From the NCBI GenBank assembly GCA_036001065.1, contig DASYUQ010000100.1, forward strand, positions 1 to 55,136: DNA of 55,136 bases, in the 5' to 3' direction. Below are positions 17 through 13,689 of this stretch, in pieces; within the stretch, counting starts at the first letter, position 1, and the number at the start of each line of letters is the position of its first letter. The notes under the pieces were generated by a model, which was not told the origin of the DNA, made no database searches, and saw only the letters and a program-made list of their open reading frames with translations. Position numbers and translations under genes: made by a program. The DNA is from Candidatus Methylomirabilota bacterium (GTDB taxonomy: Bacteria > Methylomirabilota > Methylomirabilia > Rokubacteriales > CSP1-6).

Positions 17-3000
17 TCACGGCCGGCCGTTACCCGCCTGGAGGGTGCTCAGCGCGCGCAGGACGTCCTGGATCTGCAGCGGCTTGGCCAGGACGAGATC
101 CACCCCGCGCGAGGGCAGATCCTCCGGCGCCACTTCCACTCCGAATCCGCTCATCATCACCACCGGCACCTCCGGCGCCTTGGCCTTCACCGCGCGTGCC
201 ACCTGCCAGCCCGTCATGCCCGGCATCGCCAGGTCCGTGAAGACCACGTCGAATCGCTCGGCGCCGAGTCGGCCCACCGCGTCCTGGCCACTCTGCACCG
301 TCACCGCGGTGTGGCCGGCGGTGATCAGGATGTCCGCCACCACCTCTCCGACCTCTTCCTCGTCGTCCACCACCAGGCAGTGCAGCGAGGTCGCCGCCCC
401 CGCCGGCGCCGCGAGCGGTGGGGCCGATTGCTCCACCGAACCCGAAATCACGACGGGGAACAACAGGCGGAAGACCGTGCCGTGGCCCTCTTCGCTCTCG
501 ACCGTGATCCGTCCGTGGTGGCGCTGGAGAATACCATAGGCCATCGAGAGACCGAGGCCGGTCCCCTTCGGCCCCTTGGTCGTGAAGAACGGGTCGAAGA
601 TCTTCTCCCGGAGGTCCTCGGGGATCCCGACGCCGGTATCGCTCACCGCGACCTCCACCTGCCCGTCCACCACCGCCGAGCTCAGGGTGAGGACGCCGCC
701 GTCCGGCATCGCGTCGACCGCATTCAGGATGAGGTTGGTCATCGCCTCCCGTAGCTCGGCCGGATCGCCGGCCACCCGCGGCAGCGACGCGAGCTCAGAC
801 CGCACCTCGATGGCGACCCCGCGTCGGAGCGACTCCTCGCGCCACCGCGACTGGGTGATCTCCAGCGCGTCGCGCACGACCTCGTTGAGATCTACCGGCA
901 CCAGCGGCTCATCGCGGCGAATGCGGGCGAACTCCTGCAGCCGGCGCACGGTCTGGGCGCCATCCGTCGCCGAGCGCTCGATCACCTCGAGCCATTGCCG
1001 GAGCTTGGGGTCCTCGACGCGTCGGAGGAGCAGCTGGGTGCGGCCGAGGATGGCGGCCAGCAGGTTGTTGAAGTCGTGGGCCACGCCGGAGGCCATCTCG
1101 CCCAGAGCCCGCAGCTTCTCCGTGCGCACCAGGTGGTCCTGGGCCGCGGCCAGCTCGCCGTAAGCCCGGGTCCGCTCCTCGAACAGGCGCGCGCTCCGGA
1201 GCGCCAGCGCCGCCAGATCGGCGATGTTGGCGAGGAGATTCTCGTCCGCGGCCGTGAAGGCCCGCTCGGCGCTGCGCAGGGCGAGGACGCCCAGCACCCT
1301 CTCGCCCGCCCGCATGGGCACCCCCAGCCAGCAGGGAAACGCCTCGACCCCGGCCACCGCCGCCACGCCCCGGCGCGCGCACTCGCCGAGATAGTCCTCG
1401 GTTCGGATGGCGCGCCCGGTCGTCAGAATCGCCGACACCAGACCGGACCCCAGGCGATAGCGCTCGGGCAGCGCCGGATCGCGCCGGCCGTGCCGGAGGT
1501 CCAGGGGTACGTCGACCTCGTCGCCTCCCTCGGTCCGGAGGGCGATGAGCATGCTGCGCGCGTCCAGGATCCGCCCGACCTGGCTGTGGAGCGCGTCGAT
1601 GAGCGCATCCTGGTCGAGCTGGCCCGTCACGGCGCGCGCCAGCTCGTGCAGCACCGACAGCTCCTCCACCTGCCGCCGGTTCTGCTCGAAGAGCCGGGCG
1701 TTCTCCACGGCCACGCCCGCCTGGTTGGCGATCGCCTCCATGAGCGCCAGCTCGCCCGGGGAGAAGTCGCGCTGCTCCTCGCGCCAGACCGCGACGAACC
1801 CCGCGATCAGCCGCTCCTTGGCCAGGATCGGCACGAAGAGCTGGCTCCGATGGGGCGCGATCCGCGTGAGGAAGGGCGGGATCCGCGGATCGGCGTCGGC
1901 GTTGCGCGCGAACACCGCCCGCTTGGTCCGGGCGGCCTCGGCGTAGAACGGGTGCTCGAGGATCGACAGGCGCACCTCGCGGACCGCCGGCAGCCACTCC
2001 GGCGGTACGTGGTAGCCTGCCGTCGGGGCCAGCCATTCGCCGCTCCCGTCCAGCATCCAGATGCCCACCGTATCGGCGCCGATGGCCCGGGTGATCTGGC
2101 GCATGAAGTGGCGCAGCAACGGGTCGAGGTCGAGGGTGGACGACAGCGTCCGGCTGACGGCCAGCAGGGTCTCGGTCTCCTTCAGCCGCACCTCGCGCTG
2201 CCGGGCCAGCTCGGCGTTCTCGAGGGCAAGCCCGATCTGCGCGGCGACGCCCTCCAGGAGCCGGATCTCGGCGGACTCGAACCGCCGTCCGGTGCGCCAC
2301 CAGACGAGGATCAGACAGCCTCGGCTCTCGCCGCGCACGCGGGTGGGCGCCAGCATGACCGAATGCGGCGGCAGGAGCCGAACCCACCGCTGATCGAAGC
2401 GCTCGTCGTCATGGGTGTTCGGGCTCCAGATGACCCGCCCTACGCGGTACTCGTGGAGCAGGCGCGGGATGCGCTCCAGCACGATCGGATGGCTGATGAA
2501 GACCGCGCGCAGAGACCCGGGCACCCGGTAGCCGGCGAGCGGCTGGAGCGCTTCACCGCGCTCATCGAGCACGTAGGCCCCGACCATGTCGGCCCCGAAC
2601 GCCTGGCCCACCTCGCGCGCCACGCGCCGCAGCGTCTCGTCGACGGGGCCCGGCTGGGAGAGCACCTGGCCGATCGCCAGCAGCGTCGTGGTCTCCCGGA
2701 GCCGCTCCTGGGCCTCCGCGTAGAGGCGGGCGTTCTCGAGGGCCAGGGCGAGCTGGCCCGCGATGGCTGTCGCGAGATTCACCTGCCACGGCTGGAACGG
2801 GCTGACGCGCTCGCAGTAATCGAGGTTCAGCACGCCGATGACCTCGTCCTGACGGATCAGCGGCACGGCCATGTACGACTTCAGGCCGTAGGCGTCGATC
2901 CACTGCCGGGGAATCAGGTCCGTAGCCGTGGTGTCGTCGATGAGGACCGGCCGGTGGGTCTCGATGGCGCGGACGTGCGCCGGCACGTCGCCGAGCGCGC

Positions 3001-6000
3001 AGGGCGGCAACGCCGTGAAGGCGGCCCACATCTGGGGATCCCGGTGGCCGTCGGCGAACTGCGCCATGAGCGGGACGATGCGATCGCCGTCCCAGAGCTC
3101 GATCGAGCAGCGATCCACCCGGCAGACCCGGGCGATCTTGATGGCCACGCGCTTGAGCAGTTGCTTGGAATCGAGGGTCGCGGTGAGGATCTCCGCCACC
3201 TCGAGCAGCGCCCGCGTCTCCTCGAGCCGCCGGCTCGTCTCGGCATAGAGACGGGCGTGGTCGAGCGTGACGGCGGCCTGGGCGACGAAGCTCTCCAGCA
3301 GGCTCTGGTCGTCGGGGCCGAAGCTGAACGGCGCGCGGCCATTCAGCGTCAGCACGCCGAGCAGCGAGTCCTGCAGCACGATGGGTACGGCGAAGAAGCT
3401 GGTGATGCCGTGCGCCCGCGACCAGTCCCGGGCCTGGTAGCGCTCGTCGGCGAAGACGTCGGGGATGTTCAGCGGGCAGCGGTGGGCGGCCACCCAGCCC
3501 GCCGCGCCCTCGCCGAACGCCAGCGCGGCCAGCGGGAAGTCGGCCCCCAGGCGGTCGTCGGAGAAGCCGCTGATCTTGAGCGTGCGCGTGCTCTCGTCGG
3601 CGACCCAGAAGGCGACCAGCGGCGCGCCCATCAGCTCCGAGGCCGCGCAGGCGATGGTGCGGAGGACCTCGTAGATGTCGAGGGACGACGACACGATGCG
3701 GTTGACGTTGGCGAGCGTGCGGAGCCGCGCGGCCCGCACTTCCAGCGTGGCGTAGAGGCGCGCGTTCTGAATCGCCAGGGCCGCGTGGTCGGCGAGCTGC
3801 AGCAGCACGGCCTCGTGCCGGTCGGTGAAGGGCCGGGCCACGCGGTTGTCGACGTACAGGACGCCTTCCACGCGATCCCCGATGCGGATGGGGACGGCCA
3901 GCTCGGCGATGACGCCCTCCTCCCGGGCGACCGCCAGATAGTCCTTGGTGATGCGCGGGTCGCCGGCGTAGTCGTCGGTGCGGAAGGGCCGCCCGGTCAC
4001 GAGGACCTGGCCGGAGACGCCCTTGCCCGGCTCCAGCCGGAAGGCGTCGTACCGCCGATAGCGGGTGCCCACGCCGTAGCGGAAGACCATCTCGTCGGAG
4101 CCCGGCTCGCGGAGCGCGATCCGCGCCAGGTCGCTCCCGCACAGCTCCCGGGCGCCCCCGATGAGGCGCTGCAACACCGTGTCGATGTCGAGCGAGGCGT
4201 TGATCGTCCGCGCCAGCTCGGCGATCACCTCCGCCTCCCGGCGCCGCTGCTCGGTCTCGTCGTGGAGCCGGGCGTTCTCGATGGCAATGGCGGCCTGGGT
4301 GGCGAGGGATTCCAGAACGGCCAGGTCGTCGGCCGAAAACGGCGCCGCGCCGGTCCCGCGACGGGACATGTTGATGACGCCGAGCACCCGATCGCGAAGG
4401 ATCAGCGGATGCGCCATCAGGCGAGTGAAGCCGACGGCGACGAATCGCTCGAGCGCGTACGGCGACGCCGCGTAGTCGTTGACGACGAGCCCCCGCCGCT
4501 CCTGAGCGCAGGCGCCCACGAGGCCGTGCCCGAACGGGACGCGACGATCGAAGAGCGCGTGCTCGCTCCAGGCGGACGGCGTCAGCCGGCGCTCCTCCTC
4601 GACCAGATAGATCACACCGTCGGCACCGAAGAGCCGGCCGGCGCGATCGACGATGAGCTGGAGCAGGCGGTCGAGGTTGAGCTCGGCCGCGAACTCCCCC
4701 TCCACCTCCGCCAGGACCTCGACCTGGGCCCGCCGCGCCGTCTCCAGCGCGAACAGGCGCGCGTTCTCGAGGGCCCGGGTCGCCTGATCGGCGAAGGCCT
4801 GGGCCAGCCTGATGTCCTGCTCCTCGAAGATCCGGCCCGCTCGATCCCCCACGCCGAGCGCGCCGATCACCCGATCGTGAACCCGCAGCGGCACCGCCAG
4901 AACCGCCCGAAAGGGCGCCTGCTCGATCTGGGCTCGGACCTCGGGCGGGAGCGACACCCCGGGATCGTTCAGCAGATCCCTCGTCACCACGGCCCGCCGC
5001 TCCCGCACGGCGAGCCCGCTCACGCCGGTCTCCTTCGGAAGGGCGATGCTCCGCGGGAAAGCCGGACCGACGTCGCCGGAGACCGCCATCGCCACCAGGG
5101 CGCCCGAGGCGGGCTCCAGGCGGTACACGACGGACGCCTGCGCCGCCAGCAACCCACGGACGTTGTCAGCGACGCGCTGGGCGACGACGTCGGGATCCAG
5201 AGTCTCGGAGAGCAGGCGCTCGACGTCGGCGAGCGCGGCCATGCGCTCGGCCTGACGGCTCGCCTCGCGGTGGAGGCGCGCGTGCTCCAGGGCGATGGCG
5301 GCCTGCCCGGCGAACGCCTCGGCCAGCTCCCGATCGCGCGCGGTGAAGGGGTGGCGCGCGCGGAAGGTGAAGACGCCGATGATCCGCTCCCCGGCGCGCA
5401 GCGGCACGCCCAGGTAGGTCGTGTAGCCCAGACGCGCGTCCGCCGCCCGATGCTCGGGCACCATCTCCGGCACCTCGGCGACGTCGGCGGCGATCGTCCG
5501 CCCTTCCCGGACGACCCGGCCGCTGAAGCTCTCCCCCACCTTGATGCGCGGGCGGAGCATCGTCTGGGCGGCGGTGCCCGCCAGGCCCGCCAGCACCAGC
5601 TCGTCGCCCTCCACGAGCCGGAAGCCCGCGTTGTCGACGTCGAGGAGCCGCGCGGCCTCTTCGGCGATGGCCCGGAGCAGCGCGTCGGCGGATTCCGCTG
5701 CGCCGATCTTCTTGTTGATCTCCAGCAGCGCCGCCAGTTGGGCCCCGTGGATCGTCTCGTCCTCGAAGCGCCGCGCGCTGTCGAGGTCATCGGCGGTGGC
5801 CGACGTCCGCCTCGCCGTCCGGCCCGTGAGGCAGGCCGCAGCCACCACCGCCGCGACGGCGACGGCCAGCGAGCCGAGCAGCCAGCCCCGCAGCCGCTCG
5901 CGCTCGGCCCGGTACGCCGCCTCGGGGACCAGGGCCCAAAGCCCGGCGATCGGACCGAGCGGCCGCAGCGCCCAGGGCTCGCCCGCGATCTCGACGGTCC

Positions 6001-6700
6001 CCGTGCGGGCGGCCGCCGCCCAGCCGTCGGCCGGCGCCTCCGCGCGGGTGGCGCCGAGCAGCCGGTCCCCCGCCAGCGCCACAACGGCCGGCCGCGCCGC
6101 CACGCTGCCCAGCGGGCGCTCGAGCCGCGCCAGCCGGCGGCCGACGATCGCCGCGCCGGCGGGCGCACCGCCGGCCCCGCGGATCGGGGCGGCGGCCAGG
6201 AGATACGCCCGCCCGTCGATAACGTGAAAGACGACCCTCGGCGCGGCGACCGGGGCCAGATCGGGGACGGATGCGCGGGGCAGTGCCGGCACCTGGACGA
6301 GGGTGCCGCCGCGGGCATCCAGCACGAGCAGGAGATCGGCGAGGCGCTCGACCGTGAGCGCGATCATGCGCGCCGAGGCCCCGCGCGCCAGCGTCGCCCA
6401 CTGGCCTTTGACGGCGCCCTCGACGACGGCGGCATCCTGGGCGAGGATCCGGGCCTCGCGCAGGAGCGCCTCTTGCGCCTCCTCGACGACCTCCCGGGCG
6501 GCGGCGACGGCCTGGGCGACGAGCGTGGCCTGGCGCTCCTCGAGCTGCCGGAACAGGGCGGCGGCGCCGAGGCCCCAGAGCCCGGCGAGCACGATGAGGA
6601 TCGCCGCCGGCCGAGCGAGAGGCGCCAGCGTGATCGCGGGCCTCAGCGGCGCTCGCCGACGCGGTGGAGCTTCAAGAGGTTGGTCGTGCCCGTCACCCAC
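17..6700 (-). CDS. Hybrid histidine kinase with nine tandem GAF domains and a receiver domain
   Basis: A 2227-residue membrane sensor kinase. A first membrane helix (about residues 25-48), an extracytoplasmic sensor region and a second helix (about 275-297) are followed by nine consecutive GAF domains (about 315-1815). Each GAF ends in a helix like ALENARLY. The kinase core has the H box [11 protein letters not shown] box [14 protein letters not shown], and G boxes DTGVGIPE and [14 protein letters not shown]-terminal receiver begins [11 protein letters not shown] and has the phospho-acceptor Asp in [13 protein letters not shown]. It should pass a small-molecule or redox signal to its receiver and perhaps to unseen partners. 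The GTG start at 6700 overlaps the end of pyruvate kinase by 58 bp; a start a few dozen codons downstream is possible. The ligand cannot be inferred. Confidence 0.93.
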
Positions 6701-11199: not shown

Positions 11200-11285
11200 C
11201 CTTCTCGACAAGAGCAAACCCGTCGCGAGGCGGGGACGCAAAGCCACGGGTCAGGCCAGGCACCTGACGGCCGGGTTACCGAAGG
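11200..11285 (+). promoter_or_regulatory. GEMM-I cyclic dinucleotide riboswitch, A20 (cGAMP-type) variant
   Basis: All GEMM-I landmarks are present: GCAAACC at 11214-11220, a stem closed by a GCGA tetraloop (11225-11228), GGGACGCAAAGCC, a second stem GTCAGG / CCTGAC, and the terminal GGGTTACCGA. P1 is CCTTC (11200-11204) with GAAGG (11281-11285). The ligand-contacting base equivalent to G20 of the Vibrio Vc2 RNA is A (11213, in AAGAGCAAACC). A at this place marks the Geobacter riboswitches selective for 3',3'-cGAMP. The downstream coding gene is MlaC-like. The expression platform (11286-11387) has no obvious terminator; control could be at translation. Confidence 0.88.
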
Positions 11286-11296
11286 AAGGGCTAGAG

Positions 11297-11395
11297 ATGA
11301 TCTCACGACCCGCAACACGGGCCCGTCCGCGGCGCGTCGTCGCTCCTCGCGTGCTCCACCAGCACCAATCACAAAGGGGCCGACTGTATGACTAG
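11297..11395 (+). CDS. Possible 32-residue leader ORF after the riboswitch
   Basis: An ATG six bases after GGAAGGG (the strand that closes riboswitch stem P1) opens a 32-codon frame ending at TAG 11393-11395. That stop overlaps the first codons of the MlaC-like gene (ATG 11388). The peptide is Arg-rich with no recognisable domain. If translated, P1 pairing would hide its ribosome-binding site and could couple ligand binding to the downstream gene. It may equally be a chance frame. Confidence 0.3.
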   Translation: MISRPATRARPRRVVAPRVLHQHQSQRGRLYD

Positions 11396-12032
11396 AGCGC
11401 TGAGCGTGTTGCGTATGGCGGTGGCCGCCTTCAAGGGTCACGTCACGTCACCGGGGGCGGTCGTGAAGTCGGCGACGGCGGGGGTCACGACCATCCTCAA
11501 GAGCGCGAGATCCCGCCCGCACGGGCAGGGGGCGCTGACGCGCCAGGATCTCCAGCGCGTCCACGGCGAGATCCGCCGGATCGCGAACGAGGTCTTCGAT
11601 ACCGAGCAGATGGCGCGGGGGCTGCTGTCGCGCCACTGGGCGACCCGAACGCCCGCGCAGCAGGCGGAGTTCGTGCGGCTCTTCACAGGCTTCCTGGAAC
11701 GCTCGTGCGCGTCTCACATCACGGAGAGCTGGCGCGTGACGATCCTCCAGGTGGGCGAAGTCCTCGACGGAAACTTTGCCATGGTCACCTGGAGAATCTT
11801 CACGCTCCGGACACTTGCCCTCCTCGTCTATCGACTGCACCTCAAAAACGGGCGGTGGAAGATTTACGACGTCCTCCTGAACGGCGAGAGCTTCGTCGCC
11901 GCCTGCCGGAGCCAGTTCGATCGCGCGCTGACCTTCCCGTCCGACGCGGCCTCCATTCAGGCCGCCCTGGCCGAAGCGCTACGCCGATGGAATCGCGCTG
12001 CGGGTGTCGAGCTCAGCTCGACTTCGCCCTGA
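11388..12032 (+). CDS. MlaC/Ttg2D-like phospholipid-binding protein
   Basis: A 214-residue protein of the MlaC (toluene tolerance Ttg2, HpnM) family, periplasmic carriers that move phospholipids or other lipids between membranes. The diagnostic region is FDTEQMARGLLSRHW, then TPAQQAEFVRLFTGFLE, followed by GRWKIYDVLLNGESFV near residues 155-175. The N-terminus has only a short hydrophobic stretch, so an export signal is not obvious. The gene stands alone: no MlaA, B, D, E or F partner is in the window. Its 3' end overlaps the convergent membrane-protein gene by 20 bp. The cyclic-dinucleotide riboswitch upstream is its evident regulator. Confidence 0.85.
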   Translation: MTRALSVLRMAVAAFKGHVTSPGAVVKSATAGVTTILKSARSRPHGQGALTRQDLQRVHGEIRRIANEVFDTEQMARGLLSRHWATRTPAQQAEFVRLFTGFLERSCASHITESWRVTILQVGEVLDGNFAMVTWRIFTLRTLALLVYRLHLKNGRWKIYDVLLNGESFVAACRSQFDRALTFPSDAASIQAALAEALRRWNRAAGVELSSTSP

Positions 12033-13689
12033 GCACGCGCCGCTTGTCCGGCTCCCACCGCACCCCGAGCGCGGCCACCGCCCAGGCCACCGGGGCGGCG
12101 ACCAGCGCCGGGTACGCGCCTACGACGGAGGCCCCGGCCGCCAGCCCCGGACCGGCCAGGGCCAGCGCGGCGAAGACGGCGGCGCCGACGAGAGCGCCGG
12201 CCGCGCGCGCCGCCGAGCCCGCCCCCGCGAGCGCCGGCGCGATCGCCACGGCGGCGAGGCCCAAGGCAAGGGTCAGCGCGCGCCAGGTATCGACGGGCCA
12301 GGCGGCGAGCGCGGTCGCCCCGGCGAGCAGTCCCAGCCAGACCACGTCGACACGGGCACCCCGGCCCGTGCCTCGCTCGACCGTGACGGCCGTCAGCACG
12401 CGGTCATGGAGCGCCGACGTCGTGGCCACGAAGAGCGCCATGAGAGCGATGAGCACGGTGAGGACGAGCGCGCGATCCCACGGTGGCCCCGGAAGCGCCC
12501 ACGGCAACCGGGCCAGCGACGCCACCGCGGGCGCTCCCAGCGCCAGCTCCGGCCCCGCGAACCCGCCGTAGACGCCCCAGCAGACGGCGCCCACGACGAC
12601 GAGCGGCACCGCGAGCGCCCCGAGCGGCGCCAGGCCGGCCGCGACATGCGGACCGTCCCCGTCGCGCCGGGGCGGGAGAAGCACGAGGGCGCCGCCAGCG
12701 AGCGTGACCAGCGCGGCCAGAAACGTGGCCAGCGCGGTACCCAGACTTCGCTCGCGCGGATCCGCCCATATCACGCCCGACAGCGGCGCCTCGGGCACGC
12801 GCTTGCCGGGCTCGAACCGTACGCGCACGCCGGCCGCGAGGTCCAGCCGATCGCCCGGGCGCAAGGCGAGCCCCTCGCCCCGGGCCAGGCGCCATTCCCG
12901 AACGACGACGCGATCACCGTCCCGCTCGACCACCCGGAAGACGGCCTCGCCCAGCGCCGTGATCCGGTGGGGCTCGCTGAAGACGAGCGACGTCGGCACC
13001 AGCAGCACCGCTCCCTCGGTCACCCACGCGCTCCGCTCGCGGAAGACGAGCGCGGACCGGGAAGCCAGCGCGCTCCACGCCTCCCACGGCGACCGACCCG
13101 ACATGGCAGCGATGGCGAGAAGCGGGAGCACCAGCCCGGCCACTCCCACCGTGAGCGCGACCCGGCGCACCCTCGCGCCGGCGGACGCGCGAGTCAGGCC
13201 CAGCCCCAGCGCCGCTGCGACGGCGAGGCCCAGCCAGCGGGCTCCGCCGAGAACGCGGGCCAGGTCGGCGACGACGGCGAGGCTCGCCCACAGCACGAGG
13301 CCGACGCTCGCTGTCCCCAGCATCGTCAGCGCCGCGCCGGACCGCCCCGCGGGCGACGGCAGTGCCCACAGCCGCGCCAGGAGAGGGGCGAGACAGGCGA
13401 CGAGTGCCAGCAGCGGCGCCCCCGGCTCACCGGCCACGACGTGAGCGGCCAGCGAGGCGACGAGCGCCGGGCTCAGCCAGGCCGCGGCCGAGGCGGGCCG
13501 GCGTGCCCGCGCCAGCACGAGGCCCGTCACCAGCGCACCGAGCGCCGGGGCCACCAGGACGGCATACCACCAGAGCAGCGCGACGCCGGCCAGGCGAACG
13601 CTGCCGAGACGGGGAAGCGAGGCGAGAAGGGCGCCGCCGGCCAGGAGCACCAACAGCACGACGACTCCGGCGCGGCGTGCATCGGTCAT
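12013..13689 (-). CDS. Polytopic membrane protein of unknown function
   Basis: A 558-residue protein with many hydrophobic segments. About six helices occupy the first 200 residues, a soluble domain lies at roughly 215-310, and another set of helices follows to the end. The soluble part contains GEGLALRPGDRLDLAAG and resembles no family I can name. A -10-like TATAAT (minus strand, 13704-13709) lies only about 15 bp from the ATG, which has no clear Shine-Dalgarno, so a very short leader is possible. It converges on the MlaC-like gene. Function unknown. Confidence 0.75.
   Translation of the reverse strand: MTDARRAGVVVLLVLLAGGALLASLPRLGSVRLAGVALLWWYAVLVAPALGALVTGLVLARARRPASAAAWLSPALVASLAAHVVAGEPGAPLLALVACLAPLLARLWALPSPAGRSGAALTMLGTASVGLVLWASLAVVADLARVLGGARWLGLAVAAALGLGLTRASAGARVRRVALTVGVAGLVLPLLAIAAMSGRSPWEAWSALASRSALVFRERSAWVTEGAVLLVPTSLVFSEPHRITALGEAVFRVVERDGDRVVVREWRLARGEGLALRPGDRLDLAAGVRVRFEPGKRVPEAPLSGVIWADPRERSLGTALATFLAALVTLAGGALVLLPPRRDGDGPHVAAGLAPLGALAVPLVVVGAVCWGVYGGFAGPELALGAPAVASLARLPWALPGPPWDRALVLTVLIALMALFVATTSALHDRVLTAVTVERGTGRGARVDVVWLGLLAGATALAAWPVDTWRALTLALGLAAVAIAPALAGAGSAARAAGALVGAAVFAALALAGPGLAAGASVVGAYPALVAAPVAWAVAALGVRWEPDKRRVLRAKSS

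Follow-up and report, generated by a model that had tools for sequence, protein, structure and literature searches.

A GEMM-I riboswitch aptamer of the c-di-GMP-I class with an A at position 20, probably a retuned c-di-GMP switch, upstream of a MlaC-family gene in a Rokubacteriales bacterium

The window analysed here is a stretch of 55,136 nucleotides from a Candidatus Methylomirabilota bacterium of the order Rokubacteriales. The sole above-threshold Rfam match that cmscan reported in the window lies at 11204-11284 on the plus strand and belongs to RF03167, c-di-GMP-I-GGC (66.2 bits, E 1.6e-13; gathering score 59). The same place matches RF01051, c-di-GMP-I, with 66.5 bits against a gathering score of 35, and the match is full length and above the gathering scores of both families. 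The element stands before a gene for a MlaC-family protein, and the features of the locus are as follows.

11204 to 11284, plus strand: GEMM-I (c-di-GMP-I class) riboswitch aptamer (RF03167, RF01051 and our own covariance model)
11208 to 11213, plus strand: J1/2 (ACAAGA), six bases (covariance-model alignment; compared with J1/2 A9-A14 of 4YAZ, PMC6274999)
11213, plus strand: A equivalent to Vc2 position 20, with which J1/2 ends (covariance-model alignment)
11214 to 11239, plus strand: P2, made of GC, AAA, a stem with the GCGA tetraloop, GAC and GC (covariance-model alignment; pairs counted)
11240, plus strand: A47 equivalent, in J2/3 between the bases of the ligand (A in all 104 matches)
11242 to 11277, plus strand: P3 including an internal bulge (covariance-model alignment; pair counts)
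11279, plus strand: C92 equivalent, Watson-Crick contact to a ligand guanine (C in all 103 matches having the column)
11284 to 11290, plus strand: GGAAGGG, purine-rich and Shine-Dalgarno-like, overlapping the P1 3' strand (by inspection; putative expression platform)
11297 to 11395, plus strand: candidate 32-codon leader ORF, ATG at 11297, its stop overlapping the mlaC start (putative)
11388 to 12032, plus strand: MlaC-family gene, 214 aa (PF05494, E 1.5e-25; congener orthologue 89% identical)

A covariance model was built from 26 relatives and used to align 104 GEMM-I matches, among which the window element scores 102.7 bits and falls in the upper quarter. Across the 26 relatives 98.2% of the cells of the fold pair and 11 of the 24 pairs show two-sided changes, a level reached in none of 500 shuffles, which places the fold beyond chance. 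All conserved positions other than position 20 and all pairs are intact. A preliminary description of this DNA had named the element a GEMM-I riboswitch, pointed to the GCGA tetraloop and GGGACGCAAAGCC as landmarks and proposed RF01051 for scoring; both landmarks are present as described, and the Rfam scores at 11204-11284 together with the two-sided changes uphold the assignment. The element is a genuine GEMM-I riboswitch aptamer of the c-di-GMP-I class, and the riboswitch is probably functional.

From the end of the aptamer to the ATG (11388) of the MlaC-family gene there are 103 nt, and a Shine-Dalgarno-like AAAGGGG precedes the gene at 11373-11379. The earlier claim that a lipid-transport gene lies downstream agrees with the PF05494 match. 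We sought an intrinsic terminator in the leader and found none, and when the leader was folded in search of other structures its energy was no better than that of shuffled sequence. Since no intrinsic terminator was found, control is probably translational (or Rho-dependent); we would only tentatively place it at translation, the expression platform having been read by inspection. The leader frame at 11297-11395 is also open in the one congener compared (G052), and most substitutions between the two alter amino acids. Among 68 downstream proteins scanned, the MlaC family occurs only in the window species and this congener, and the idea that the group as a whole conserves control of MlaC was therefore rejected. 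The GEMM-I target genes of the order are of the kind expected for c-di-GMP, namely Ig-fold surface proteins, sigma-54 response regulators, PilZ proteins and glycosyltransferases. It may be noted that the MlaC-family protein lacks a clear hydrophobic signal peptide, which its paralogues in the genome have, and that its gene stands alone, the convergent neighbour at 12013-13689 on the minus strand giving no Pfam match. Elsewhere in the window, a 2227-aa frame at 17-6700 on the minus strand is, from its translation as read by eye, a candidate sensor histidine kinase with many GAF-like repeats and a receiver at the C-terminus.

In the covariance-model alignment A11213 falls at Vc2 position 20, one base 5' of the invariant GC pair with which P2 begins; A11240 corresponds to position 47 and C11279 to position 92. 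The preliminary description had put an A at the equivalent of G20 and had named, as the result that would refute it, a covariance-model alignment with G at this ligand contact; the model finds A. Its column-by-column alignment with the Geobacter cGAMP riboswitch is likewise correct, A11213 sitting in the place of A14. In the solved Geobacter structure J1/2 consists of A9-A14 (six bases), J2/3 of A41 and J1/3 of G74-C75, and A14, the last base of J1/2, is the equivalent of position 20 (PMC6274999); a cGAMP complex of a G20A GEMM-I has also been crystallised (4YB1, as cited in PMC6274999). The aptamer thus has A20, A47, C92 and a six-base J1/2 in common with the GEMM-Ib cGAMP riboswitch of Geobacter (Gm0970, pilM; 4YAZ), and both bases by which GEMM-Ib is recognised, A at position 20 and C at 92, are present, while the G at position 20 that is typical but not required in c-di-GMP-selective members is replaced by A11213. 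The remainder of J1/2 is common to the genome's own G20 paralogues and therefore carries no information on the ligand. Position 20 itself has been said to be one that 'rather represents a selectivity factor ... than a hard filter' (PMC9262584). Compared with RF01051 and its offshoot RF03167, the aptamer has the same helices, tetraloop and C92, but A instead of G at position 20. The RF03167 consensus has G at position 47, by our reading of the model consensus and of what the name c-di-GMP-I-GGC presumably means, whereas the aptamer has A (11240); all four GEMM-I copies in the genome carry A at 47, yet score best against RF03167.

We then consider how widespread and how old this A is. The three further GEMM-I aptamers of the genome (L001-L003) all have G20, and so does the orthologous aptamer of the congener (L057), which occupies the corresponding site upstream of the same gene, in a region of synteny with 93.6% nucleotide identity over 4476 nt. 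Within 11204-11284 the two orthologues differ at five positions, including position 20. GEMM-I matches were found in 38 of the 60 genomes of the order, and among 101 distinct aptamers from the phylum (from the 104 aligned matches) position 20 is G in 95, A in 5 and T in 1, with one of the A20 sequences (L286, genome G081) coming from outside the order. The A20 copies occur one per genome, and besides the window element two or more of them have close counterparts with G20 in relatives (L075 compared with L022 and L017; L086 with L078). Together, the G20 paralogues, the G20 orthologue of the congener and the G20 loci of relatives argue that A20 arises sporadically and is not a conserved feature; judged from the genomes compared, the A of this element is private to one species. 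Scanning genome contigs for an A20 GEMM-I pattern gave at least 120 stretches, and the matches listed include Firmicutes, Chloroflexi, Planctomycetota, Gemmatimonadota, Omnitrophota, Nitrospirota and Proteobacteria, besides Geobacterales. With A20 found across so many phyla, the base alone is not a marker of Geobacter-type signalling.

A source of cGAMP was sought in the genome, which is assembled in 239 contigs and rated 100% complete. Strict c-di-GMP synthases keep an Asp where Hypr enzymes have Ser or Thr, and Hypr enzymes make up only 0.17% of GGDEF domains (PMC9140294). The genome encodes six GGDEF proteins (seven Pfam matches), all of which read G-H/Y-x-x-G-D, that is, Asp, so that the Hypr GGDEF which the preliminary description had suggested looking for was found in none of the six. 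Asp was likewise seen in the GGDEF matches read from the congener and from the three same-family genomes that carry A20. As a positive control, the same reading detects Ser/Thr Hypr-type domains in two Geobacteraceae genomes, those of Geomobilimonas luticola and a Geobacteraceae MAG, as GHxxGS or GT domains and also the modified GGDDF type (L313, L315, L322, L323, L328, L339). In L328 and L339 the domain is of the GGDDF type and its selectivity position is taken by Ser or by a shifted motif, in which they resemble GSU1937 as described in PMC8835794. Geosporobacter ferrireducens carries an A20 GEMM-I (L150), and among its GGDEF domains, the smallest fragments excluded, no Ser or Thr was read, all having Asp except one degenerate domain with Asn (L312). 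SMODS is the Pfam domain of DncV-type cyclases, and a search of the genome for it found none; the DncV-like model PF21654 had no match in any control genome either, and a search with it is therefore uninformative. Neither the GGDEF reading nor the SMODS search thus shows the cGAMP-making host (by Hypr GGDEF or CD-NTase) that belongs to the GEMM-Ib setting.

We consider it probable that this is a GEMM-I riboswitch of the c-di-GMP class which had a G20 ancestor, underwent a recent, species-specific G20A change and is now a retuned c-di-GMP switch. The computed observations behind this reading are the fold, the ligand-contact bases, the congener's G20 orthologue standing before its own copy of the gene, and the detection of canonical GGDEF enzymes only. 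The ancestral riboswitch before the solitary MlaC-family gene would have had G at position 20, and a recent G-to-A change confined to one species would have followed. The ligand in cells is likely still c-di-GMP, bound with altered, presumably lower, affinity and looser specificity, and binding of cGAMP by the aptamer in vitro is plausible. G20A would then move the response threshold and install no new signal, and ligand binding would close P1 and sequester the GGAAGGG overlapping its 3' strand. What counts against the retuned c-di-GMP switch is that A20 is the exact base of the Geobacter cGAMP riboswitches, that a non-GGDEF cGAMP synthase of an unrecognised family is possible and that the genome, though rated complete, is fragmented.

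An unlikely alternative that deserves some weight is that the A is a neutral or harmful change in a decaying riboswitch, or an erroneous base in a single metagenome assembly. The change is seen in a single species and in a fragmented assembly, and the element has diverged from its congener counterpart (93.8% identity) to much the same extent as the gene (92.1%) or the leader (92.8%). Sporadic A20 copies elsewhere point the same way, two of them showing other departures from the consensus (L060, GGGCACGC; L075, an altered J1/2). Against this stand the intact state of all other conserved positions and of all pairs and the high model score; moreover, A20 recurs, with five cases in the phylum and a very wide spread beyond it, which indicates that this base is tolerated. 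Still less probable, in our judgement, is a true 3',3'-cGAMP sensor of the GEMM-Ib type through which the species controls its MlaC-like gene by cGAMP. The intact, high-scoring element with the A20/A47/C92 set and six-base J1/2 of the Geobacter riboswitch would suit such a sensor, but it sits among three G20 paralogues and a G20 orthologue, in a genome whose detected GGDEF enzymes are all canonical and in which the search for SMODS found nothing, and Geosporobacter has A20 with no Ser/Thr among the GGDEF domains read. The A20 copy is moreover single and isolated in its genome, whereas cGAMP is bound by 12 of the 17 GEMM-I riboswitches of Geobacter sulfurreducens (PMC8835794), and the Geobacter GEMM-Ib targets are cytochromes or pili, in contrast to the MlaC-family gene here. 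Physiological cGAMP signalling is accordingly possible but unsupported, and we rate it as improbable. The preliminary description had proposed cGAMP signalling in this lineage, and this part of it found no support, given the species-private A, the Asp of all GGDEF proteins, the SMODS search and the sporadic A20 across phyla; within the literature collection available to us, no paper pairs Rokubacteria with riboswitches. Slightly more remote again is the idea that an unrecognised cGAMP synthase and the single G-to-A change made a riboswitch that was inherited as a c-di-GMP switch respond to cGAMP in control of the MlaC-family gene; if true, ligand switching would have been caught between two sister species.

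With its repeated, sporadic origin in genomes that have only canonical GGDEF enzymes, A20 by itself serves poorly as an indicator of cGAMP signalling. The window species with A20 and its sister, the congener with G20, share the gene and the leader and offer a clean natural one-base experiment, suited to measuring the effect of position 20 on ligand choice and affinity.

Further observations were made on the aligned GEMM-I aptamers. Those of other genera (L287, L288 and partly L286) lie between GAAGACC upstream and GGTGGTCTTC downstream, and some of L286-L288 carry a GGGGTG...CACCCC-like hairpin; these flanks are possibly a shared expression platform, which is absent from the window element. 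When the second A of GC-AAA is replaced, the A of GGGACGC tends to be replaced with it (A/A in 80 sequences, C/C in 11, A/G in 6 and C/T in 2; examples are L069, L070, L073, L078, L085, L086, L089 and L090), which looks like the covariation of a non-canonical pair in the internal loop of P2.
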